A stretch of 13,640 nt of DNA from an uncultured Ruminococcus sp. (GTDB taxonomy: Bacteria; Bacillota; Clostridia; Oscillospirales; Ruminococcaceae). The notes beneath the pieces are model-generated. The model worked only from the letters and a program-made list of their open reading frames with translations. It made no database searches and was not told where the DNA came from. Every line of letters starts with the position of its first letter. Position 1 is the stretch's first letter. Of this stretch, positions 2,647-13,640 are shown one piece after another. Where the stretch lies: NCBI GenBank assembly GCA_946183385.1, contig CAMHBN010000022.1, forward strand, positions 1-13,640. Direction: 5' to 3'. Made by a program: the position numbers and the translations under genes.

Positions 2647-2675
2647 TTGACAACGCCGCCGAAAAGGTGTATAAT
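2647..2675 (+). promoter_or_regulatory. Consensus sigma-A promoter of the TetR-hydrolase operon
   Basis: TTGACA (2647-2652), a 17-bp spacer and TATAAT (2670-2675) match the housekeeping consensus at every position. Transcription should start near 2682, about 34 nt before the TetR ATG. A promoter this strong in front of a repressor gene suggests tight autorepression. Confidence 0.88.
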
Positions 2676-3819: not shown

Positions 3820-3832
3820 CCCCGCTCCCGCT
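3798..3832. terminator. Hairpin at the convergent ends of the hydrolase and the ECF operon
   Basis: AGCGGGAG (3798-3805) pairs with CTCCCGCT (3825-3832). The stem extends inward through a U-G pair and two more G-C pairs, leaving a 13-nt loop. It overlaps the end of the hydrolase gene and abuts the stop of the S-component gene. Neither side has a clean U-tract right after the stem, so it is a weak or imperfect intrinsic terminator at best. Confidence 0.35.
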
Positions 3833-4518
3833 CACACGCCGTATTTAGTTTTTATCCTGTCGAGCTTGTCCCCGAACGGCTTCGCGAGCAGAGCGAGGAA
3901 CAGCACGTTCGACACCGCATACGAGACAGTGTATGGTATCGCGGTGAACAGCGCCGCGAAGTAGAGCCTGAAGCTGAACCCCTCCGCGTACCACAGCACC
4001 GTCCAGATGTCCATCGTGAACGAGTACGCCACGCCCGCGAGAGCTCCGTACACGAGAAGCGCCCATTTACGCCGCTTCAGCGGCTCCGCGAGCAGTCCCG
4101 CGATGAAGCCCGTCATACCCCACGCGAGCATCTGGAATGCCGTCCACGGACCCTGTCCGAAGTAAAAATTCGAGAGCACCGCCGTCATTGCCCCGACGAG
4201 GAATCCCGCCTCGCCGCCGAGGTAGAGGGCGGTGATTATCGTGAGCGCGGCAATCGGCTTGAGGAAGGGAATGAACCTCCCCGCGAAGCAGAGCGCCGTC
4301 ATCACGGAAACTATCACCAGCCGCCGCGAGCCCGTCGTTTTGCGCTCGAAGCCCGCCGCGAACAGCAGCAGAGCCATTGCCGCGACCGCGAGGGATATGA
4401 TGATGTGGCGCTTGCGGTCGAAGACGACGGCTCCCGCGAGCGTTATCGCGGGTATCACGAGGAAGGGCACTGCCACGCGTATCACGCCGCGGAGGTCGCG
4501 GTTCTTTATCACTATCAT
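3832..4518 (-). CDS. ECF transporter S component (probable cobalamin/corrinoid specificity)
   Basis: 228 aa, very hydrophobic. Two N-terminal helices (about 13-33 and 39-57) precede an S-component core (about 65-212). The core contains AALTIITALYLGGEAGF (90-106) and FYFGQGPWTAFQMLAWG (118-134), a signature I associate with the CbrT-like group of S components. S components bind the vitamin in the membrane and dock onto the EcfT-ATPase module. The start is ATG 4518, with GGGAGG 8 nt upstream and an ATGA overlap with the ATPase stop; a reading frame extending upstream lies inside the ATPase gene. The cobalamin assignment rests mainly on the B12 riboswitch heading the operon and the transcobalamin-like proteins encoded upstream. 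The sequence alone does not prove the substrate. It is the last gene of the operon. Confidence 0.82.
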   Translation of the reverse strand: MIVIKNRDLRGVIRVAVPFLVIPAITLAGAVVFDRKRHIIISLAVAAMALLLFAAGFERKTTGSRRLVIVSVMTALCFAGRFIPFLKPIAALTIITALYLGGEAGFLVGAMTAVLSNFYFGQGPWTAFQMLAWGMTGFIAGLLAEPLKRRKWALLVYGALAGVAYSFTMDIWTVLWYAEGFSFRLYFAALFTAIPYTVSYAVSNVLFLALLAKPFGDKLDRIKTKYGV

Positions 4519-6152
4519 CGCGCCGCCTCCCTTTTCCCGTTGAGACGGCAGAGCTCCGCCGCCTGCGCGACCGTGACCGCTCCCTCGTAGAAGCCGCGTG
4601 TCATGCGGCTGACGGCGGTGGTATAGAAGCTGCTGCACGAGAAGAATTCGCGCGGCGTGCCGACCGAGACTATCTGCCCGCCGAAGAACATTGCGCACCT
4701 GTCGGCGGCTTCGGCGGCAAACTCCACGTCGTGCGTGACGATGACGGTGGTTACTCCGTCCGCTTTCAGACGCCGCAGAATCGCAGTCATATCAGCTTTT
4801 GCATTCGCATCGAGTCCCTTTGTCGGCTCGTCGAGGAGCAGCAGCTTCGGCTTCGAGGCGAGCACCTTCGCAAGCGCGACCAGCTGCTGCTCGCCGCCCG
4901 AGAGGTCATACGGGTGCTTGTCCATGAGGCGGGAAACGTCGTAGGGAAGGGATTTCACGTCCGCGCCGCACTCGCTCAGCTCCTCGCGCACGGAATTGTG
5001 CAGGAATGTGGTCTGCACGTCCTGCGGCAGCAGCGCGAGACATTCGCGGTAGAGCGAGCGGTTTTTGTAGTCCCGCAGCTTCTTCCCGAACACGCGTATA
5101 TCGCCCTTGTAGGGCTTCAGCAGCCCCGCCGCCGCGTTGAGAGTAGTCGTCTTGCCCGAGCCGTTGCCGCCAAGGATACAGAATATCTCCCCCGCCCCGA
5201 CTGCGAGCTCCAGCCCCTTGATGATATCGCGCGAGCCGCGCTCATAGCGGAACCACACGTCTTTCAGCGACAGTGCCGCCTCCACGGGAACGGTATACTC
5301 CTCCGCGGGGAGCTCCCTCGTCTCGAAGCGGTAGTTTTCCTCGATATATCGCCGTCCCTCGCGCACAGTGAGCGGACAGCTGCCGCCCTTTTCGAGCTCC
5401 GCATACAGTCTCGACGCCGCGGGCATCCCCCGCAGGAGCTCCTCCCGCCCGCGAAGCCGCGTTATCACGTCCGCGGGAGCACCGTTCGCCGCGAGCGTGC
5501 CGCCCTCCATTATCATCAGCCTGTCGCATATCGGCACGACCTCCTCAAGGCGGTGCTCCGCCATTATCATCGTCAGCGACATATCGCGGTTGAGGCGTTT
5601 CAGCGCGGCGATGAAGTCGGAAGCCGCTATCGGGTCGAGCTGCGCGGTCGGCTCGTCGAGAATGAGGATATCGGGCTGCATGACGAGCACCGCCGCGAGA
5701 TTGAGCAGCTGCTTTTGTCCGCCCGAGAGCTCGGAGACGTCCCTGTCGTACCACTCGCCGATGCCGAAATAGCTTGCCATTTCGGCTGTGCGGCGGGCTA
5801 TCTCGCCCTGCGGCACGCCGAGGTTTTCGAGCCCGAACGCAAGCTCATGCCACACCTTGTCGGTGACTATCTGCTGCTCGGGCTGCTGCATGACGAAGCC
5901 TATTTTTGCCGCAGAATCGCGGTCTGCGAGCTCTGACAGCTCCTTCCCGCGGAAGAGTATGCGCCCCGTGCGCTCCCCGAGCGGCGTGAGCTCGCGCTTG
6001 AGCATACGCAGGAGCGTGGATTTGCCGCTTCCCGTAGCTCCGCAGAGCACCGCAAATTCGCCCTTTTCGAGCGTCAGCGAAACGTCCCTGACGGCGGGAG
6101 AACCGCATTTCGGATACGTGAAGGTCAGACCTTCGACTGCAAGTATTTCCAC
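4515..6152 (-). CDS. ecfA: ECF transporter ATPase, fused double domain (EcfA-EcfA')
   Basis: 545 aa holding two complete ABC ATPase domains in one chain. Domain 1: Walker A GATGSGKST (38-46), Q-loop QQPEQQ (89-94), signature LSGGQ (142-146), Walker B DILILDEP (161-168), switch His 200. Domain 2: Walker A GGNGSGKTT (328-336), LPQ (375-377), LSGGE (417-421), Walker B LLLLDEP (437-443), H474. Both sites look catalytically complete. The pair powers vitamin uptake by rocking EcfT and the S component. Many ECF systems encode the two ATPases separately; here they are fused by a linker of about 80 residues. The start is GTG 6152, with GGAGG 10 nt upstream; it overlaps the end of ecfT by 28 nt. The stop overlaps the S-component start as ATGA. 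The C-terminal extension after about residue 500 has no motif I recognise. Confidence 0.93.
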   Translation of the reverse strand: MEILAVEGLTFTYPKCGSPAVRDVSLTLEKGEFAVLCGATGSGKSTLLRMLKRELTPLGERTGRILFRGKELSELADRDSAAKIGFVMQQPEQQIVTDKVWHELAFGLENLGVPQGEIARRTAEMASYFGIGEWYDRDVSELSGGQKQLLNLAAVLVMQPDILILDEPTAQLDPIAASDFIAALKRLNRDMSLTMIMAEHRLEEVVPICDRLMIMEGGTLAANGAPADVITRLRGREELLRGMPAASRLYAELEKGGSCPLTVREGRRYIEENYRFETRELPAEEYTVPVEAALSLKDVWFRYERGSRDIIKGLELAVGAGEIFCILGGNGSGKTTTLNAAAGLLKPYKGDIRVFGKKLRDYKNRSLYRECLALLPQDVQTTFLHNSVREELSECGADVKSLPYDVSRLMDKHPYDLSGGEQQLVALAKVLASKPKLLLLDEPTKGLDANAKADMTAILRRLKADGVTTVIVTHDVEFAAEAADRCAMFFGGQIVSVGTPREFFSCSSFYTTAVSRMTRGFYEGAVTVAQAAELCRLNGKREAAR

Positions 6153-7003
6153 CTCAGGGACACCTCCGTTTCAATGAATACCGGCAGGAGCACGAGCGCT
6201 CCGTATGCTATAGACCCGCACACGCCGAGCGTGCCCGTCACGCCGACGTCAATGCGCGGATAGAATGTGAATGTGAGCGAGTCGGTCGCTATCGCGGCGG
6301 CGACAACTCCGAGCAGAGCCAGCGTAATTGCCGTAAATACGCCGTCTGCGGCGGTGAATCGGAAGCGCCGCAGCTGTGTCCGCCTGCCCGTACCGTAGCC
6401 GCGGGCGGTCATGCTGTCGGCGGTGATGATGCCGTTTTCGAGCGCCCACGTCGAGATGATGGAAAAGACGCGCATACGCCCGCGCAGGTCGTCGATGATG
6501 TTGTCCTCGCTGTAGAGCCCCATCGCCTTCTGCGCGTCGCTGACCTGCTTTGCCCGCCTCGCGAACATCGGCACGGCTCGCAGCGCCATCGACAGCACGA
6601 GTGCCAGCTTCGGGGAGACCGTCCCTGCGACGCAGAGGATCTTCTCGCTCGTCATTATCTGCGTGAACGAACGGAACCAGTACAGCACGCCGACTATCAT
6701 CGCCGCCGAATTCACGCCGTACAGCAGCGCCTCGAGGGTGACGGGTCGGTCGTTGAGCACGAAGAGCACCGTTGCGCCGTTGTGGGAGACGAGCGGGTTC
6801 GCGAGCGCCAGCACCGCGAACAGCAGCACAAAAAACAGGTGCGACCTGCCGTGCTTTCTGCCGTTGCGGACGGCGAAGAACAGCACCGCTCCCGCCAATG
6901 ATACCGCCATCAGGAGCGGATGTCCGCAGAACATCGCCACTCCGACTACGGCGAAGAACCACACCGTCACCGCCACAGGGTCAAATTCAGAAAAGCTTCT
7001 CAT
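6125..7003 (-). CDS. ecfT: ECF transporter transmembrane component EcfT
   Basis: 292 aa with about five to six transmembrane helices (near 11-28, 31-45, 56-72, 94-110, 222-241, 255-275) and long cytoplasmic coupling helices between about 120 and 210. EcfT proteins carry two short Ala-Arg-Gly motifs that contact the ATPases. The second is intact in SMTARGYGTGRR (A200-R201-G202). The first position reads AQKAMG (A160-M161-G162), so its Arg is replaced by Met. EcfT links the S component to the fused ATPase encoded immediately downstream. The ATG start overlaps the stop of the transcobalamin-like gene as ATGA (7000-7003), implying translational coupling. The gene appears intact. Confidence 0.9.
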   Translation of the reverse strand: MRSFSEFDPVAVTVWFFAVVGVAMFCGHPLLMAVSLAGAVLFFAVRNGRKHGRSHLFFVLLFAVLALANPLVSHNGATVLFVLNDRPVTLEALLYGVNSAAMIVGVLYWFRSFTQIMTSEKILCVAGTVSPKLALVLSMALRAVPMFARRAKQVSDAQKAMGLYSEDNIIDDLRGRMRVFSIISTWALENGIITADSMTARGYGTGRRTQLRRFRFTAADGVFTAITLALLGVVAAAIATDSLTFTFYPRIDVGVTGTLGVCGSIAYGALVLLPVFIETEVSLRWKYLQSKV

Positions 7004-8838
7004 TCCTCGTACACCTCGTTAAGGTCGTGCCCGAGCTCGCAGGTATACAGCCACTCGATGACGTCGCCGTCCGAGAGGACGTAGTCGCCGCTGTTGCGCG
7101 AGGGCGAAATGCCGTTGACGTGGTAGACCCAGCCCGACAGGTCGCCGAAATCTAACTCGTAGATGTAATTTATTCCCGCGACGTATATCATACTCTTCGA
7201 GCCGCCGCGCGCGTCTATCTGTATGCCGTAGGTCTGCGCCGCGTCGGTGAGCACGTCGTAGGCGGTATCGCCCGCCTCGATGTCGAACGTGGTCACGGGC
7301 AGGATAACGCCGTCCGCGGGGATATAGTCCGCGTCGGACTTCCCGACCACGGTATCGCAGCGTATCTCCATAGTTACCGTCCCGACGGCGTTGGTCTTCT
7401 CCGACGCCGAGCCGTAGTAATCGTCCGCGGAGCGTATATCCGTGACGAGCACGATGACGACTCCCGCCGCCACAGCCGCGCCGACGAAGATGAAGTTCTT
7501 GTAGCTGCGCTTGCCGAGCGCGAGCAGCAGCACGGACAGCAGAGCTCCCGCACCGATGATTACAATGATAGCGACGGGCTTGTAGCCGCCGCTTTTTTCT
7601 CCGTTATCAGCGGAGCTTATCACCGCCGCGGATGTACCCGCCGAGGTTACGGTAGTCGGCAGCTCAGAACTTGCAGAGATATGGGAAGCTGTGTCCGAAG
7701 CCGAAGTTATCGCCGTACCTGTTGCCGTCGCGGAGGTCGCGGACACGCTCGATGCAGTCGTAACCTTTTCCGATGCAGAGCTGTGTGATGTCGCCGTCGT
7801 GCTCACCGATTCCCCTGCCTTAGCCGTCGTGACCGCACTCGTCTGAGCCGCCGTGGTCTGCACGGGAGCCGAAACGGGCTGCCGCGCGTCGATGACATAG
7901 AGCGGGCCCTCGCCCTCGAGCATACGCTTGTACGCGACGAAGGAATACATCGCCTGAATGGTGGCAGTCTCGTTGAAATCGCCGCCCGCAACGTGGCTGT
8001 ATCCGCCGTCCGCACGCCGATAGGTCAGCATACTGTCGATGATGGTATTGCCGTCCTTGATGAAGCGGCTGTCCTCGCCGCAGTCGATACCGAGCGCCGA
8101 CAGCGCCACAAGCACCTGCGCGGAGCTCTCGGGATTGGGCGTCCCGAAGCTCTGATAGCCGCCGTCGTCCATCTGTCTGCGCGAGAGGAGCTCCAGCCCG
8201 CGGTCTATCGCTGCACGGACGTCGCCGCGCTCGTCATAGTACGGAGCAAGAGCCTGTATAGTCATAGCCGTGACGTCGATGTCGCCGTACTCGCCGAAGA
8301 GCGCCCAGCCGCCGTCGTTATACTGGAGGTCAAGGAGCTCGTCCGCGACGGATTCGGCTGTATACTTATCGCAGGTGTAGCCGTTGTTGAGGACGTGCAG
8401 ACCGTAGATACGGCTCATAATTCCGTTCGCGCCGATGGAGTCGTCGAGGATATCCGCGATATAGCTGTCGGAGCTCCCCGCCGCACACAGCGCGAGCGCG
8501 TACTTCTCTCGCATGGTCGCCGAGTTTATCTTAGTCGAGCCGATGTAACCTTTCAGCGCCCGCTCATAAGAGCCCATCCCGCGCACACCGTCCTGACTGA
8601 GCGCGATGATGTACCACTCCGACATCACACCCGCCTTCTCGGAGAGGTAGCCGTCTATCCACTCCTGAACGTCGTCCGCGCCCGATTCTTCGAGCTTATA
8701 AGCAAGTATACCGCCGATAAGGTCATCGACCTCGTCGGCGGTATATCCGTAGCCTGCGGCTCTTATAGGTACGAGCGCGAGCAGCAGCACCAGCGCTGCC
8801 GCCCGGCACATCAGCCCTCCGAGAGCCTTAGTTCTCAT
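7000..8838 (-). CDS. Membrane-anchored transcobalamin-like protein (alpha/alpha toroid + DUF4430)
   Basis: 612 aa. A signal peptide (about 1-28) leads to an alpha/alpha-toroid region (about 35-310) with prenyltransferase/squalene-cyclase-type repeats, for example LQYNDGGWALFGEYG (171-185), RRQMDDGGYQSFG (220-232) and YRRADGGYSHVAG (273-285). A Ser/Thr-rich linker (about 322-412) follows, then two adjacent transmembrane helices (about 420-441 and 448-467), then a DUF4430/transcobalamin-C-like beta domain (about 485-602) ending in GWVYHVNGISPS and DGDVIEWLYT. Toroid plus this beta domain is the fold pair of animal intrinsic factor and transcobalamin, which hold cobalamin between the domains. 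The helix hairpin would leave both domains outside the cell. Placement between a B12 riboswitch and an ECF transporter supports corrinoid capture. A terpene-cyclase role is unlikely for a secreted protein in this context. ATG 8838 overlaps the upstream gene by 11 nt; its ribosome binding site (AGAAAGAAG) is weak, so coupling is likely. Confidence 0.85.
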   Translation of the reverse strand: MRTKALGGLMCRAAALVLLLALVPIRAAGYGYTADEVDDLIGGILAYKLEESGADDVQEWIDGYLSEKAGVMSEWYIIALSQDGVRGMGSYERALKGYIGSTKINSATMREKYALALCAAGSSDSYIADILDDSIGANGIMSRIYGLHVLNNGYTCDKYTAESVADELLDLQYNDGGWALFGEYGDIDVTAMTIQALAPYYDERGDVRAAIDRGLELLSRRQMDDGGYQSFGTPNPESSAQVLVALSALGIDCGEDSRFIKDGNTIIDSMLTYRRADGGYSHVAGGDFNETATIQAMYSFVAYKRMLEGEGPLYVIDARQPVSAPVQTTAAQTSAVTTAKAGESVSTTATSHSSASEKVTTASSVSATSATATGTAITSASDTASHISASSELPTTVTSAGTSAAVISSADNGEKSGGYKPVAIIVIIGAGALLSVLLLALGKRSYKNFIFVGAAVAAGVVIVLVTDIRSADDYYGSASEKTNAVGTVTMEIRCDTVVGKSDADYIPADGVILPVTTFDIEAGDTAYDVLTDAAQTYGIQIDARGGSKSMIYVAGINYIYELDFGDLSGWVYHVNGISPSRNSGDYVLSDGDVIEWLYTCELGHDLNEVYEE

Positions 8839-9745
8839 GCTTCTTTCTCAGAGAGAATGCTGCAAACACGCCTGTTCCGAGAAGAACGAGCGAAACTGCC
8901 GCACCTGTATCGCCTGTCTTGGGCGAAGCTGTACCTGCTGCTGCGGTAGACTTAGCAGTAGAAGTTGAAGCGGTAGTAGTAGCAGTTGTTGTAGTAGTAG
9001 TGGTAGTAGTTGCAGCCTCTGTAGTGGTAGTTGTAGTCTCGGCAGCCTTTACGTCAGCGATGAGCACGGGAGAGATAAGTGTCATACCCTCGATGCTTCC
9101 TGCACTGATAACGTTCCTGCCTGCCTTGTCGAGCTTTATCTTAGCCTTGCCCTCGGCGTCTGTCTTGACGTCTGTAGCCTCGCCGTTAACGGTGACAGCC
9201 GCACCCTCGACTGCAACGGGCACCAGCTGATAATTCTCGTCGAAGCTTGCACGCTTGAGAGTGACCTCAATTTCGTCGCCCTCATTTGCCTCGGTGTTGT
9301 TCTTGTCGAACCAGCTGTAGAATGTAGTAGCCCATCCGTTGGGATCGGGATAGATGAAAGCGTTGAGGTAATCGCCGCTCTTCAGCTCATCTGTAAGACC
9401 CATAGCAATGTTGTTGTTTATATAGTAGCCGTAGCTTCCGCCGTTCTCAACACCCCAGAGCTTGTCGATGGAATCGCCGTACTGTGTCTCGACAGTCTTG
9501 TAGCCTGCCTCGGAGCCGCCCTCGAAGAACTTATCGTGGGTGATAACGAGCGCATCGTTTACGGTGAGCTTGCCGTCGCTGTCGATATCGGTAACGGTAA
9601 CAGCCTCCTGTGCAACAGCGACCTTGCTCTCGGCGTCGATAACAGATACGAAGATATCGGCTGAGTTCTCCTCAGCGAAAGCGGTAACGCTCATAGCCGA
9701 GCAGGTGATGAATGCGGCAGCAGCCGCAGCGATGAATTTTTTCAT
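8828..9745 (-). CDS. Sortase-anchored surface protein with DUF4430-like domain and calcium-type loop
   Basis: 305 aa. Signal peptide about 1-24 (cut after AFA). A first domain (about 29-135) includes DIDSDGKLTVND (53-64), a 12-residue EF-hand/dockerin-type loop with acidic residues at positions 1, 3, 5 and 12, then DKLWGVENGGSYGYYINN (94-111) and LKSGDYLNAFIY (121-132). Those two stretches resemble the last strands of DUF4430/transcobalamin beta domains. A second, Ig- or Cna-B-like domain (about 155-232) carries VTVNGEATDVKTDAEGKAKI. A Thr-rich stalk (235-272) precedes SPKTG (274-278), a hydrophobic helix and the tail RKKHEN, a sortase sorting signal. ATG 9745 has AAAGGAGAGG upstream and follows the B12 riboswitch leader, so this is the first gene of the operon. 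Role inferred: wall-attached corrinoid binder ahead of the membrane protein. The Thr codons are unusually ACT/ACA-rich compared with its neighbours. Confidence 0.82.
   Translation of the reverse strand: MKKFIAAAAAAFITCSAMSVTAFAEENSADIFVSVIDAESKVAVAQEAVTVTDIDSDGKLTVNDALVITHDKFFEGGSEAGYKTVETQYGDSIDKLWGVENGGSYGYYINNNIAMGLTDELKSGDYLNAFIYPDPNGWATTFYSWFDKNNTEANEGDEIEVTLKRASFDENYQLVPVAVEGAAVTVNGEATDVKTDAEGKAKIKLDKAGRNVISAGSIEGMTLISPVLIADVKAAETTTTTTEAATTTTTTTTTATTTASTSTAKSTAAAGTASPKTGDTGAAVSLVLLGTGVFAAFSLRKKHEN
8972..9039. repeat. Trinucleotide-repeat tract encoding the Thr stalk
   Basis: On the minus strand this is a run of near-identical Thr codons (ACT/ACA/ACC, seen as GTAGTAGTAG-type triplets on +). 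It codes for the Thr-rich stalk between the Ig-like domain and the sortase signal. Slippage in such a tract would change stalk length in whole codons without breaking the frame. Confidence 0.65.
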
Positions 9746-9763
9746 GGTGACCTCTCCTTTAAC

Positions 9764-9794
9764 AATAAAAATGCTTTCCTTGCAGATGGAAAGC
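9764..9794 (-). terminator. Leader terminator of the B12 operon
   Basis: On the minus strand GCTTTCC (9788-9794) pairs with GGAAAGC (9773-9779) across an 8-nt loop, followed by ATTTTTATT. It lies after the riboswitch aptamer and just before the ribosome binding site of the first gene, as expected for a riboswitch that stops transcription when cobalamin is bound. I could not resolve a clear anti-terminator. Confidence 0.62.
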
Positions 9795-9818
9795 GGAAAA
9801 CGAACAAAACAAACGATG

Positions 9819-9845
9819 CTCCGTTTTTCACTGTCCAAAAACGAG
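9819..9845 (-). other. Secondary hairpin in the riboswitch expression platform
   Basis: On the minus strand CTCGTTTTT (9837-9845) pairs with AAAAACG-AG (9819-9828) with one bulged G, around an 8-nt loop. It lies between the aptamer and the leader terminator. It may be part of the switching structure; no function is shown. Confidence 0.35.
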
Positions 9846-9850
9846 AATAT

Positions 9851-9946
9851 CCGCACGCCTGACGAGCGACCCGACTTCGGCACACGCCTCATACGGTAGT
9901 GACTGCTGTGGCGGACTCTCACCGCACTTCCCTCAGCTTCAGGCTG
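9851..9946 (-). promoter_or_regulatory. Cobalamin (B12) riboswitch
   Basis: On the minus strand the aptamer shows conserved pieces in the right order: GGGAAGT (9926-9932), GGTGAGAGTCC (9913-9923, the B12-box core), a following CAGTCACTACCGTA (9892-9905) in place of the usual ...CACTGTGA, a small GGC-GCC hairpin (9879-9888), and CGAAGTCGGG (9870-9879) matching the GAAGTCAGG element. The closing P1 helix is GCCTGA (9939-9944) with TCAGGC (9857-9862). It starts within a few nt of the predicted transcription start. Established behaviour: cobalamin binding lowers expression of downstream uptake genes. The aptamer is compact and somewhat divergent, which leaves open which corrinoid form it prefers. 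Confidence 0.87.
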
Positions 9947-9953
9947 CATAGAC

Positions 9954-9982
9954 ATTATATCACACTGAAATATGAATGTCAA
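9954..9982 (-). promoter_or_regulatory. Consensus promoter of the B12 operon
   Basis: On the minus strand TTGACA (9977-9982), a 17-bp spacer and TATAAT (9954-9959) match the sigma-A consensus fully. Transcription should begin near 9947, giving a leader of about 200 nt that contains the riboswitch and terminator. The 110 bp between this promoter and the GGDEF-EAL stop at 10094 hold only a short GC-rich inverted repeat (10011-10029) and no gene. Confidence 0.9.
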
Positions 9983-10093: not shown

Positions 10094-11797
10094 CTATTTC
10101 AGTATCTCCGCAAGGTCGTACCTGTGGCGGCTGAGCACCTTCTCGAACCGGTCGCGCGGGAGCGGCTTATCGAAGATGAAGCCCTGCGCGTGCTGGCAGT
10201 GGTTGGCGCGGAGTATCTCTATCTGCTTGGTGGTCTCGACGCCCTCGGTGATACATTCAAGCCCGATATCGAGCGCCATCGCGACAACGTGGCGGTACAT
10301 CAGGCTCGTAACGCTCGACTCGTCCTCGTCGTCCTCCGGGAGGAAGCAGCGGTCTATTTTGAGCACATTCCACGGTATCTCGCGGATGAGGTTCAGCGAC
10401 GAATAGCCCATACCGAAGTCATCGACGGAGGTATATATCCCCTCGTCCTGCAAGCCGCTGACAATGCGCTTGAGCACGCGGAACTCTACATCGGTGGTCG
10501 TTTCGGTGAGCTCAATCTCGATGTACTGGTGCGGGACATTGTGGCGGTCGATTATCTCGATGATATGCCTGAGCAGGTCGATGTCGATGAGGTGCTTTCT
10601 CGACAGGTTGACGGAGGTGCGCACGGGTTCGAGGCAGGCGTCGAGCCACCTGCGTATATCGGCGCAGACCATGTCGAGGATATAGAAGTCGAGGAGGCAT
10701 ATATCGTTGCTCTGCTCAAGCACGGGGATGAAGTCCGCGGGAGGTATCATCTTATCCTCGTGGAACCATCGGCACAGAGCCTCCGCGCCTACTATCTCGC
10801 CCGTGTTTACATCGACCTTGGGCTGATAGTAGACCTTGAACTCCTTCCTTGCGAGCGCGGGCTCAAAGAGCTGCTGAATGCGCATTTCCGAATCGCGCTT
10901 CACGCCCATACTCTCGTTATAGTAGGAGATAGTCTCGCTCGAGCTCTGCTTGGCGGCGTGGTAGGCGCGGTTGAGCTTGTCCATGATATCGCCATGCGAT
11001 TCAAAGGAAAAATCCTCGGGGATCTCATAGATACCCGCACGCGCATAGACCATCACGCGCTTTTCGTTTTCCTTGTCGTAGTATATGGGCACGCCGCGCA
11101 GTATCGTGAGGACGTGCTCGACCAGCTCATTCCTCATCAGTGCGAGGAAGCTGTCTCCGCCAAGTCGGCTGACGATACCGTCGGCGTCGGCTATTGCGGC
11201 GATGAGCTTATAGAAATTCTTCATAACGATATCGCCGTTCTGCCGACCGATATCCTGATTGATTATCGTGAAGTGACGCAGGTTTATCAGCATAGCGGTA
11301 TAGTTCCCGCACAGCCTGCCCTGACCGAAGAGCCGCTCGACCTGACGCATAAACGCACGGCGGTTCTTGTAGCCGAAGTCGTCATAGAAGCCGAGGGCCT
11401 CTATCGCGGCGGCAAGGCGGTTTCGCGCAACAAAGCTGAGCAGCTCGAGCACAACGAGGTCGAGCCTCTTTAAATCAGTCTCTGATAGCGGCTCCTCGTC
11501 CTCGGAGCGATAGAGAGTACCCTTGATGACAGCCTGCGACTTCGTGACGAAGCGGTGCTGAATAATAGCGGGACCGCCCTTGTCGTTGTCGTAGTCGCAC
11601 ATTATCTCGCCCTCGCCGAGCTTTTCCTTGTTTTCATTGATATAGAATTCTGTGACGCCGCGCGAAATGCGGTATGCCTCCGAAAGCTCTCTGAGTGTGC
11701 CGATGAAGCCTTCGCGGTCGAAATACTCTGTATTGTTCATCTGACTTACCATTTTCACGAACAGCTCATAAAATTTCTCGTTTGGTACCAGATCCAT
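10094..11797 (-). CDS. Soluble GGDEF-EAL protein, probable c-di-GMP phosphodiesterase
   Basis: 567 aa with no transmembrane segment. An N-terminal region (about 1-135) that I do not recognise, possibly a GAF-like sensor, precedes a degenerate GGDEF domain (about 137-295) and an EAL domain (about 305-560). The GGDEF site reads GGDSF (213-217), and the metal-binding Asp is Asn in LINLRHF (N172), so cyclase activity is unlikely. The EAL domain has the expected active-site pieces: EAL (339-341), SVNLS (395-399), IELTE (428-432), DDFGMGYSS (459-467), LKID (479-482), EGVET (518-522), QGF (538-540). It should hydrolyse c-di-GMP to pGpG, perhaps with the degenerate domain binding GTP. ATG 11797 is chosen because GGGAGG lies 8 nt upstream; a frame extending 18 codons further has no such site. 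It has its own promoter and diverges from the second EAL gene. Confidence 0.9.
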   Translation of the reverse strand: MDLVPNEKFYELFVKMVSQMNNTEYFDREGFIGTLRELSEAYRISRGVTEFYINENKEKLGEGEIMCDYDNDKGGPAIIQHRFVTKSQAVIKGTLYRSEDEEPLSETDLKRLDLVVLELLSFVARNRLAAAIEALGFYDDFGYKNRRAFMRQVERLFGQGRLCGNYTAMLINLRHFTIINQDIGRQNGDIVMKNFYKLIAAIADADGIVSRLGGDSFLALMRNELVEHVLTILRGVPIYYDKENEKRVMVYARAGIYEIPEDFSFESHGDIMDKLNRAYHAAKQSSSETISYYNESMGVKRDSEMRIQQLFEPALARKEFKVYYQPKVDVNTGEIVGAEALCRWFHEDKMIPPADFIPVLEQSNDICLLDFYILDMVCADIRRWLDACLEPVRTSVNLSRKHLIDIDLLRHIIEIIDRHNVPHQYIEIELTETTTDVEFRVLKRIVSGLQDEGIYTSVDDFGMGYSSLNLIREIPWNVLKIDRCFLPEDDEDESSVTSLMYRHVVAMALDIGLECITEGVETTKQIEILRANHCQHAQGFIFDKPLPRDRFEKVLSRHRYDLAEILK

Positions 11798-11839
11798 ACA
11801 AGCGCCTCCCTTCGCACTTATAAAATGTGGTTCATAATC

Positions 11840-11868
11840 ATTGTAGCACACTTTACCAAAAAAAGCAA
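11840..11868 (-). promoter_or_regulatory. Promoter of the soluble GGDEF-EAL gene
   Basis: On the minus strand TTGCTT (11863-11868), a 17-bp spacer and TACAAT (11840-11845) form a near-consensus sigma-A promoter. The predicted leader is about 35 nt. The -35 hexamer is the same as that of pncB. Confidence 0.7.
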
Positions 11869-12011: not shown

Positions 12012-13640
12012 ATGAGGGATCAGTTTTCGATCATCTTCGTTTTCCTGATAATGGCGCTCGGAAGCTGTTCCGCAGCGGCTCTGACGTCAAAAAAGCTCAT
12101 CGGCAGCTCGGTTGCCATGTTCACGGCATTCATAACCCCGCCTATTATCGGAAATCTTATAATCATCCGCTCGGGGACAGTCGTTCCCGCAAGGATAGGT
12201 TACTATATCTACTTTCTCGGCATGGACTTCATGATATGGTCGATGTACAAATTCGTCACGGAATACTGCAATAACAAGTGGAAGGGAAGCAGGCTGAGGT
12301 TCGTGCTCGAGCTCCTCCTCGCGGCGGATATGGCACAGTACGCCTTCGACCCGTTTTTCCATCAGGCATTCACCACCGAGCCCATAAAGGTGGACGGCTT
12401 CAACTACTACCGCCTCGTTCCCAAGCTCGGACAGACGTTCCACCGTCTGGTTGTATACGGCATACTAATCGTGGTGCTGATCATGCTTTTCCGCAAGATG
12501 ATACACTCGTCGAGGATATATTCCGAGCGATATTCCGTCGTATTCGGCTCGCTCGTGATTGCGGCGCTGTGGCAGTCGTTCTACATTTTCTCGCGCACGC
12601 CCGTAGACCGCTCGATGATAGGCTTCGGCGTGATAGGACTGCTGATATTCTACTTCTCGCTGTACTACCGCCCCATGCGTCTGCTCGACCGTATGCTCGC
12701 GAATATAGCCTCCGAGATGCCCGAAGCCCTGTTCTTCTTCGACTCCAACGGCAAGTGTATATGGGCTAACGAGCCCGCCAAGGAGCTCACAGGTCTGAAC
12801 GACGACACCATAGACAAGGCTGACAAGGTGATCGGCGAAAAGCTGGGCGACTGCACAGACAAGCCCGACAACTGGTTCACAGGCGTAGTGCTCGGAGAGG
12901 ACGACGACGCACAGTATTACAACATCGAGAACCACCACGTCAACGACGACCACGGCAGATTCGCGGGCTCGTTCCTCACCGTCCGCGACACTACCGAAGA
13001 GCAGCGCAAGCTCAAGCGCGAGATGTACAACGCCACGCACGACAGGCTCACGGGTCTGTACACGAGGGAATATCTCTACAGCCGCATATCCGAGCAGCTG
13101 CGCAGCTCTCCTGATGTAAAGCACTACATCGTAGTCCTCAACATCAGGAACTTCAAGATGGTAAACGACATCTTCTCCAATGAATTCGGCGACAAGGTGC
13201 TCATCTATCTCGCCGAGCGCATACGCGCCACGCTGACGGATAACAGCGTATACGGCAGGATAGCGGGCGATATATTCGCCGCCTGCATACCCGTTGACGA
13301 ATTCGACACCGACGAGATGAACAGGAGATTCTCCGACTACAAGGTCGGCGACGGAACAGTCGAGTATACTATCCTCGTCCACCTCGGCGTGTACGAGATA
13401 ACAGACCCGAGCACCGACATCAGCGTGATGATAGACCGCGCAAACCTTGCTCTCACCACGATAAAGGACGACTACCACAAGCACGTCGCGGTATACGACG
13501 AAAATATGCGCAGGAACGTGCTGTGGGGTCAGCACATATCCACCCAGCTCGACGACGCGCTCGCCGAGGGACAGATACGCCCTTATCTGCAAGCCATCGT
13601 CGATAAGAGCGGCAGGATAGTCGGCGCCGAGGCGCTCGTG
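12012..13640 (+). CDS. 7TM-PAS-GGDEF-EAL c-di-GMP signalling protein (3' truncated by window)
   Basis: 543 codons are present and the frame runs off the window edge. Residues 1-220 hold about seven hydrophobic helices, resembling the 7TM input region of some histidine kinases. A PAS-like domain follows (about 225-335; MPEALFFFDSNGKCIWANE starts it). The GGDEF domain (about 340-495) is degenerate: the motif is AGDIF (418-422) and the metal Asp is Asn in LNIRNFKMVND (N377). The EAL domain begins near 505 and reaches its EAL triplet (540-542) as the window ends, so its remaining catalytic residues cannot be checked. Phosphodiesterase activity is therefore likely but unproven. ATG 12012 is preceded by AAAGGTCAGGTG. 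It diverges from the soluble GGDEF-EAL gene and shares a 214-bp control region with it. The upstream signal is unknown. Confidence 0.88.
   Translation, partial: MRDQFSIIFVFLIMALGSCSAAALTSKKLIGSSVAMFTAFITPPIIGNLIIIRSGTVVPARIGYYIYFLGMDFMIWSMYKFVTEYCNNKWKGSRLRFVLELLLAADMAQYAFDPFFHQAFTTEPIKVDGFNYYRLVPKLGQTFHRLVVYGILIVVLIMLFRKMIHSSRIYSERYSVVFGSLVIAALWQSFYIFSRTPVDRSMIGFGVIGLLIFYFSLYYRPMRLLDRMLANIASEMPEALFFFDSNGKCIWANEPAKELTGLNDDTIDKADKVIGEKLGDCTDKPDNWFTGVVLGEDDDAQYYNIENHHVNDDHGRFAGSFLTVRDTTEEQRKLKREMYNATHDRLTGLYTREYLYSRISEQLRSSPDVKHYIVVLNIRNFKMVNDIFSNEFGDKVLIYLAERIRATLTDNSVYGRIAGDIFAACIPVDEFDTDEMNRRFSDYKVGDGTVEYTILVHLGVYEITDPSTDISVMIDRANLALTTIKDDYHKHVAVYDENMRRNVLWGQHISTQLDDALAEGQIRPYLQAIVDKSGRIVGAEALV

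Follow-up and report, generated by a model that had tools for sequence, protein, structure and literature searches.

The stretch of DNA analysed here (the window, 13,640 nucleotides) is contig 22 of an uncultured Ruminococcus sp. genome of 2.1 Mb, 75% complete and in 334 contigs (GenBank assembly GCA_946183385.1). Its minus strand carries an operon of five genes behind a cobalamin riboswitch, encoding in order a surface protein (P1), a membrane-held transcobalamin-like protein (P2), and the EcfT, fused ATPase (EcfAA') and S components of an energy-coupling factor (ECF) transporter. We consider it highly probable that this operon serves the cobalamin-repressed capture and import of corrinoids, with binding by P1 and P2 suggested by fold and linkage. 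Riboswitch, gene order, folds, relationship to the cobalamin transporter CbrT and conserved linkage are computed features; from these we infer that P1 and P2 would bind a corrinoid, be it cobalamin, cobinamide or another, and hand it on in a certain order.

The riboswitch anatomy suggests that when intracellular cobalamin is scarce, transcription would be let past a terminator and the five proteins would be made. P2 would be a membrane-held transcobalamin whose two domains, an alpha/alpha toroid and a beta domain, face outward; because these halves are joined through a membrane hairpin, they could shut around a corrinoid next to the transporter. P1 would carry, on a stalk that is probably attached to the wall, another beta domain of the transcobalamin type and concentrate corrinoid there, a collection step by both proteins to which fold and linkage point. 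The CbrT relationship suggests the import step, in which the S component would take the corrinoid and EcfT/EcfAA' would turn it over with ATP. One may envisage corrinoid passing from P1 by way of P2 to the S component, as the initial annotation of this sequence had proposed. The stricter version, with P2 as a physical outer loader sitting on the CbrT-like S component and P1 as its wall-borne feeder, is held tentatively, at somewhat less than even chances. ECF transporters are not known to use extracellular binding proteins. If P2 is such a loader, the ECF transporter encoded here would come with capture proteins of its own, and bacteria would have an extant equivalent of the B12 carriers of animals.

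Organization of the operon and samples compared

The initial annotation had described a single promoter, a cobalamin riboswitch and five overlapping genes, and all three descriptions stood (Table 1). Adjacent genes overlap by 11, 4, 28 and 4 bases (P1/P2, P2/EcfT, EcfT/EcfAA' and EcfAA'/S). EcfT, the ATPases and the S component share one operon, as in Group I (dedicated) ECF transporters.

Table 1. Features of the probable corrinoid operon, in coordinates of the window
Feature	Position	Strand	Basis
Five-gene operon: P1, P2, EcfT, EcfAA', S in order	3832-9745	-	
Sigma-70 type promoter, TTGACA-17-TATAAT, TG before -10	9954..9982	-	12/12 consensus matches; consensus match only
Cobalamin (adenosylcobalamin) riboswitch aptamer	9816..9961	-	RF01482, model R1, kept in relatives
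Hairpin after aptamer core (CGTTTTT..GAAAAACG), probable kissing-loop arm	9822..9843	-	read from sequence
Intrinsic-terminator-like stem-loop before first gene	9773..9794	-	terminator scan
P1, 305 aa: signal peptide, transcobalamin-type beta domain, immunoglobulin (Ig)-like domain, Thr-rich stalk, SPKTG tail	8828-9745	-	
P1 residues 26-133, transcobalamin/haptocorrin-like beta domain	9347..9670	-	predicted fold
P1 C-terminal region resembling a sorting signal: SPKTG motif, then hydrophobic helix and basic tail	8831..8926	-	sequence
P2, 612 aa, membrane-held two-domain transcobalamin-like protein	7000-8838	-	Foldseek, DUF4430
P2 residues 30-320, alpha/alpha toroid	7879..8751	-	predicted fold
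P2 residues 419-465, two-helix membrane hairpin linking toroid to beta domain	7444..7584	-	model helices 419-440, 446-465
P2 residues 486-605, DUF4430 / transcobalamin beta domain	7024..7383	-	PF14478 E 3e-12
EcfT transmembrane component	6125-7003	-	PF02361 CbiQ E 9e-9
EcfAA', two fused ATPases	4515-6152	-	PF00005 two stretches, 2e-59; TIGR04520 above cut-off
S component, CbrT-like	3832-4518	-	Pfam ECF S-component families, 1.6e-10

Conservation was assessed in 80 loci, the best by S component among at least 574 relatives, and in a second sample of 40 further operon neighbourhoods besides the window. Some genomes occur in both sets (L089/L032, L117/L041 and L126/L044), and the count of 52 operons used below comes from the 80 loci alone. 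Genes in the neighbourhoods were called by a simple longest open reading frame rule, and some gaps are contig ends or frame splits. Closest among named relatives are a Ruminococcus sp. from yak omasum, with an S component 91% identical to that of the window, and records of R. flavefaciens, at 72-88%; nine of the 80 loci carry the R. flavefaciens label, named strains such as FD-1 included. Counts across the order refer to one even draw of 295 genomes at E<=0.001, uncorrected for kinship, in which the weakest S matches may be other S components.

Riboswitch and leader

The identity of the riboswitch is confirmed by its conservation ahead of the same operon in relatives. At the window leader the Rfam model RF01482 matches over its full length with 37.5 bits (E 6e-4), below its curated cut-off of 50, and across 41 genomes it has no match above that cut-off. 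Searched on the own genome at E<=0.001, RF00174 does not list the window site and has its sole match on contig 27. A pattern search located the riboswitch core on the operon's strand in 22 of 121 sequences, the window among them, and 21 of these cores were built into a model, R1 (L041, the same region as L117, was excluded). RNAalifold yielded just 12 pairs in the alignment, so R1 is mostly a sequence model; it scores the window, itself a training row, at 86.5 bits.

At E<=0.002, R1 finds the element in 45 of the 80 loci, 29 of them outside the training set, and in 20 of the 40 further neighbourhoods, the window apart; at L069 and L070 the match lies some kilobases away from the mapped genes. 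P1 was recognised in 52 of the 80 loci, and 41 of these carry the R1 element. Six of the 11 loci missed by R1 (L088, L095, L122, L128, L137 and L142) have an RF00174 match above its cut-off of 31.5 upstream of P1, at 47.4-96.3 bits; the weak R1 matches of L128 and L142 (E 0.04 and 0.19) had been scored as misses before the Rfam test. In total, a riboswitch core precedes the P1 operon in 47 of 52 loci.

By its sequence, the leader has the apparent layout of a transcriptional OFF switch, with the ribosome-binding site between the terminator-like stem and P1. A stem of at least 7 bp followed by a T run occurs in 12 of 13 related leaders (200 base-shuffled sets: mean 0.6, maximum 4), and the letters of the stem vary between relatives with pairing preserved. 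Window-wide, terminator-like sites are no more frequent than chance (8 found, 10.1 expected), and when folded by itself the leader does not exceed its shuffles in stability (z -0.48). The hairpin that follows the aptamer core, probably the kissing-loop arm, has counterparts in the leaders of relatives.

In one relative a small gene of 96 aa (L150:4671-4961) stands between riboswitch and P1, and the leaders of L115, L117, L129 and L131 contain starts resembling that of this gene. Its product may resemble homing-endonuclease-associated repeats.

The ECF transporter

The assignments of EcfT, fused EcfAA' and an S component made in the initial annotation were each recovered by domain searches. A profile of the S component run against the PDB matches the CbrT chain 6fnp_A best (3.5e-16) and 4hzu_S second (4.9e-4); up to E 10 it picks up no further S-type chain. 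Structure 6FNP is ECF-CbrT (PMC5997447, accessible part). Among solved structures, these profile matches support placing the S component with CbrT and not with another vitamin's S component. Its N-terminus is extended by about 60 residues, in which hydrophobicity peaks at 15-33 and at 39-57. The S component occurs in 117 of the 295 genomes drawn from the order and, at E<=1e-8, in 118 of 398 genomes of the phylum, and its linkage to the surface-protein operon is conserved among relatives. In four loci, a single open frame of 841-1,199 residues encodes both the S component and the double ATPase. Elsewhere in the own genome lies one further CbiQ-family protein, with a stronger match than the operon's EcfT, so the operon's ECF module is an additional one.

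EcfT falls in the CbiQ family, named for "cobalt transport", and with corrin-synthesis genes in the genome and cobalt transporters also under B12 riboswitch control in the literature accessible to us, the operon might be a cobalt importer for B12 synthesis. We regard this as very improbable, since the S component matches CbrT and the CbiM and CbiN families are not reported for the five operon proteins.

The membrane-held protein P2

P2 consists of a signal peptide, a toroid, a disordered linker, two hydrophobic helices and a DUF4430 domain, in keeping with the toroid and DUF4430 assignment of the initial annotation. When the P2 model was compared with the PDB by Foldseek, the top 14 matches were all chains of transcobalamin, intrinsic factor or haptocorrin (E 2e-7 to 1e-5). 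A difference in domain placement makes the rmsd of these matches large (10.6-16.9). For the same reason a second comparison by VIA-align is weak evidence; its 50 rows contained toroid enzymes and no transcobalamin. Sequence searches of the PDB with P2 returned mainly cyclases and thioester proteins and never the B12 carriers.

The toroid of P2 could on these grounds be an enzyme, a terpene cyclase or a glycan-active protein, and the operon serve another purpose. With both domains considered, however, the animal B12 carriers are the 14 best matches, and riboswitch and CbrT-like S component indicate B12. The squalene-hopene cyclase profile match, moreover, falls at cyclase residues 446-531, away from the catalytic DxDD motif at its presumed position. 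An enzymatic role is therefore judged highly unlikely.

Three of 58 homologues (L094, L100 and L106) were excluded from the P2 alignment. Two hydrophobic peaks stand between toroid and beta domain in all 56 aligned sequences, which should place both domains outside the membrane. Invariant in the 56 sequences are D188, T190, Q241 and H282 of the toroid and Y552, Y560, W570 and N575 of the beta domain; N575 is not kept in the split relatives described below. Animal transcobalamin presumably uses a tryptophan at roughly the place of W570.

Several relatives encode toroid and beta domain as separate genes. In L053, L055 and L048 the C-terminal end of the toroid protein and the start of the beta protein are each a hydrophobic helix, and in L063 the beta protein opens with two such helices. 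From these sequences the point of splitting or fusion seems to be the membrane hairpin, cut or joined in the split relatives (three examined).

Distinct toroid and beta-domain genes stand in the operons of L048, L049, L053, L054, L055 and L068. All of these loci except L053 also encode additional surface proteins that are large (about 1,050-1,550 residues) and have toroid-like matches. Some of their frames are cut by the end of the locus; two that were tested have Ig-like, cadherin-like or DUF4430 domains.

Two like surface proteins in one operon, and a contact with the S component that is so far only predicted, leave room for P1 and P2 binding corrinoid for storage or to keep it from competitors, merely co-regulated with the ECF transporter. 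This appears improbable: P2 is held in the membrane by a conserved hairpin, its gene overlaps ecfT, and relatives keep the surface proteins linked to the S component.

The surface protein P1

The predicted fold supports P1 as a protein with a transcobalamin-type beta domain. Plain Foldseek on the P1 model gave intimin, Ig-like and phage capsid domains among its top 50, and transcobalamin beta domains surfaced with a second-look structural aligner; a PDB sequence search with P1 returned nothing. Where the initial annotation had called P1 DUF4430-like, the predicted fold agrees and the sequence profile does not. The anchor motif SPKTG departs from LPXTG, and the window P1 scores below the cut-offs of the anchor models. 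Among 49 homologues a PxTG motif is found in 25, and at E<=0.1 there are 20 matches to Rumino_NPXTG and 16 to LPXTG_anchor. The host genome has five sortase matches. Four of 52 homologues (L085, L106, L109 and L141) were excluded from the P1 alignment. One P1 homologue (L046:4427-6655) has choline-binding repeats, so wall attachment seems exchangeable.

Several results weigh against reading the operon as corrinoid capture and import. The RF01482 score at the leader is sub-threshold, and five P1 loci (L100, L107, L121, L133 and L135) have no riboswitch by R1 or Rfam. Pfam finds no DUF4430 in the window P1, PF14478 matches none of the 49 homologues at E<=0.1 (25 of 47 families listed), and an hhalign comparison of P1 with the P2 beta domain gives nothing (probability 1.7). 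PxTG is missing from 24 of 49 homologues, some of them anchorless in the open reading frame called. For the P2 toroid by itself, terpene cyclases are closer matches than any B12 carrier listed. Conservation is moreover among near kin, since at least 574 relatives were found and the closest 80 of them were kept. Finally, the host may make its own corrinoid, as CbiC, a CobQ-type synthase and other corrin genes are present.

Probable corrinoid synthesis and second B12 system

On contig 27, the own genome encodes a CobD-like aminotransferase (by reading), a CobQ-type synthase and CbiC, together with a second cobalamin riboswitch (RF00174, 97 bits), a CbiK-family protein with a lipoprotein-like start, another protein of this kind that matches no family and an ATP-binding cassette (ABC) ATPase. 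The riboswitch there adjoins probable BtuFCD-type genes. In a genus-mate (G201), the corresponding gene run has CobU, CobS and a FecCD permease; on the own contig no permease was called. Judging by these two gene runs, corrinoids are probably made in this lineage, with two of its systems under riboswitch control. The route read in the initial annotation as complete is accordingly not to be taken as the sole one.

The CbiK (cobalt chelatase) family protein of contig 27 (L153:5693-6724) has a lipoprotein-like signal sequence, and its gene lies directly after the cobalamin riboswitch and before ABC-transporter genes. An exported chelatase relative at this site is odd for a biosynthetic enzyme.

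Across the order, CbiC is present in 11 of 117 genomes with the S component versus 49 of 178 without it (p 1e-4), and in 14 of 211 genomes with DUF4430 versus 46 of 84 without it (p 1e-18), so that avoidance of CbiC is weaker for S than for DUF4430. The genus of the window is an exception to the S/CbiC avoidance.

The operon may import incomplete or foreign corrinoids, such as cobinamide or pseudo-B12, for remodelling, and in this lineage serve as a salvage add-on to a B12 maker. This proposal overlaps with corrinoid capture and import in general. CbiC, CobQ-type and CobD-like proteins in the own genome, CobU and CobS in addition in the genus-mate, and the handling of both cobalamin and cobinamide by L. 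delbrueckii CbrT (PMC5997447, accessible part) speak for it. It nevertheless seems rather unlikely, as CbiC is missing from 106 of the 117 S-bearing genomes, most of which therefore probably need corrinoid from outside.

Neighbouring genes

Between 1244 and 3819 lie a nicotinate phosphoribosyltransferase gene (-) and, on the plus strand, genes for a TetR-type regulator and for a hydrolase of the isochorismatase family. The hydrolase has a weak match of the nicotinamidase type, and the three genes are possibly an NAD-salvage cluster. Another perfect consensus promoter is found at 2647-2675 (+). Genes of the cyclic-di-GMP type flank the operon on both sides (117-1196, 10094-11851 and 12012-13640). 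By Pfam they include one GGDEF protein and one GGDEF-EAL protein; a further protein, GGDEF-type by residues alone, extends past the end of the window.

Comparison with known systems

The CbrUVT importer was reportedly predicted by Rodionov in 2009. It is an established prediction (PMC6593275, accessible part), and CbrT of L. delbrueckii has been proven to mediate ATP-driven ECF import of cobalamin and cobinamide (PMC5997447). The window S component belongs to the same family as this CbrT (profile E 3.5e-16). In L. delbrueckii, as far as the accessible text of that paper goes, one ECF module is common to several S components, whereas the window has its module within the operon. Unlike ECF-CbrT, it also has fused ATPases, an S component about 60 residues longer at the N-terminus and two capture-type surface proteins.

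An operon of the kind proposed in the initial annotation had already been predicted. Burroughs et al. 2007 (PMC1796856), in its accessible parts, describes Gram-positive toroid/beta-domain fusions, anchors and paired surface proteins predicted to scavenge B12, and transcobalamin-like (SLBB) surface proteins in CbiO/CbiQ operons. Its carriers mostly lack key B12 synthesis genes, the same tendency as in our order-wide counts. The paper also proposed that the animal proteins of this build were acquired from Gram-positive bacteria. The window resembles those systems in its toroid and beta domain, probable Gram-positive anchor, second paralogous surface protein, CbiO- and CbiQ-type genes and predicted B12 scavenging; unlike those genomes, its own has corrin-synthesis genes. 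The word riboswitch does not occur in the main text of that paper, and its accessible parts mention neither a CbrT-type S component nor a membrane hairpin. A literature survey that included few subscription papers, and in which Rodionov 2009 was not sought by name, found no cobalamin-riboswitch operon with transcobalamin-like proteins, nor the CbrT identity of S in such operons or the P2 hairpin. Already known, then, are the idea of a Gram-positive B12-scavenging operon and the CbrUVT prediction; what was not seen described in that literature is that the surface proteins are linked to a riboswitch, that the S component is of the CbrT type and that P2 has a hairpin. The 2007 proposal, in the text accessible to us, relied on gene neighbours and missing synthesis genes, and the conserved cobalamin riboswitch and CbrT-type S component indicate the same substrate independently of those grounds. 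With this operon, the route of B12 uptake put forward in 2007 becomes readily testable, and the P2 hairpin provides a concrete, testable docking model.

P2 shares its fold and its order, toroid before beta domain, with animal transcobalamin, haptocorrin and intrinsic factor. The animal carriers are single-chain secreted proteins and are not known to have a membrane segment, whereas P2 has a membrane hairpin between its halves or, in some relatives, is split into two genes. The Ruminococcus gnavus protein RUMGNA_00854 (PDB 3u7z), labelled "putative metal binding protein", is a single small domain, unlike P1 and P2. The surface-exposed B12 lipoproteins of gut Bacteroides (PMC6143338, accessible part) catch B12 at the surface ahead of a transporter, the role proposed here for P1 and P2; theirs is a Gram-negative outer-membrane system, unlike the operon described here.

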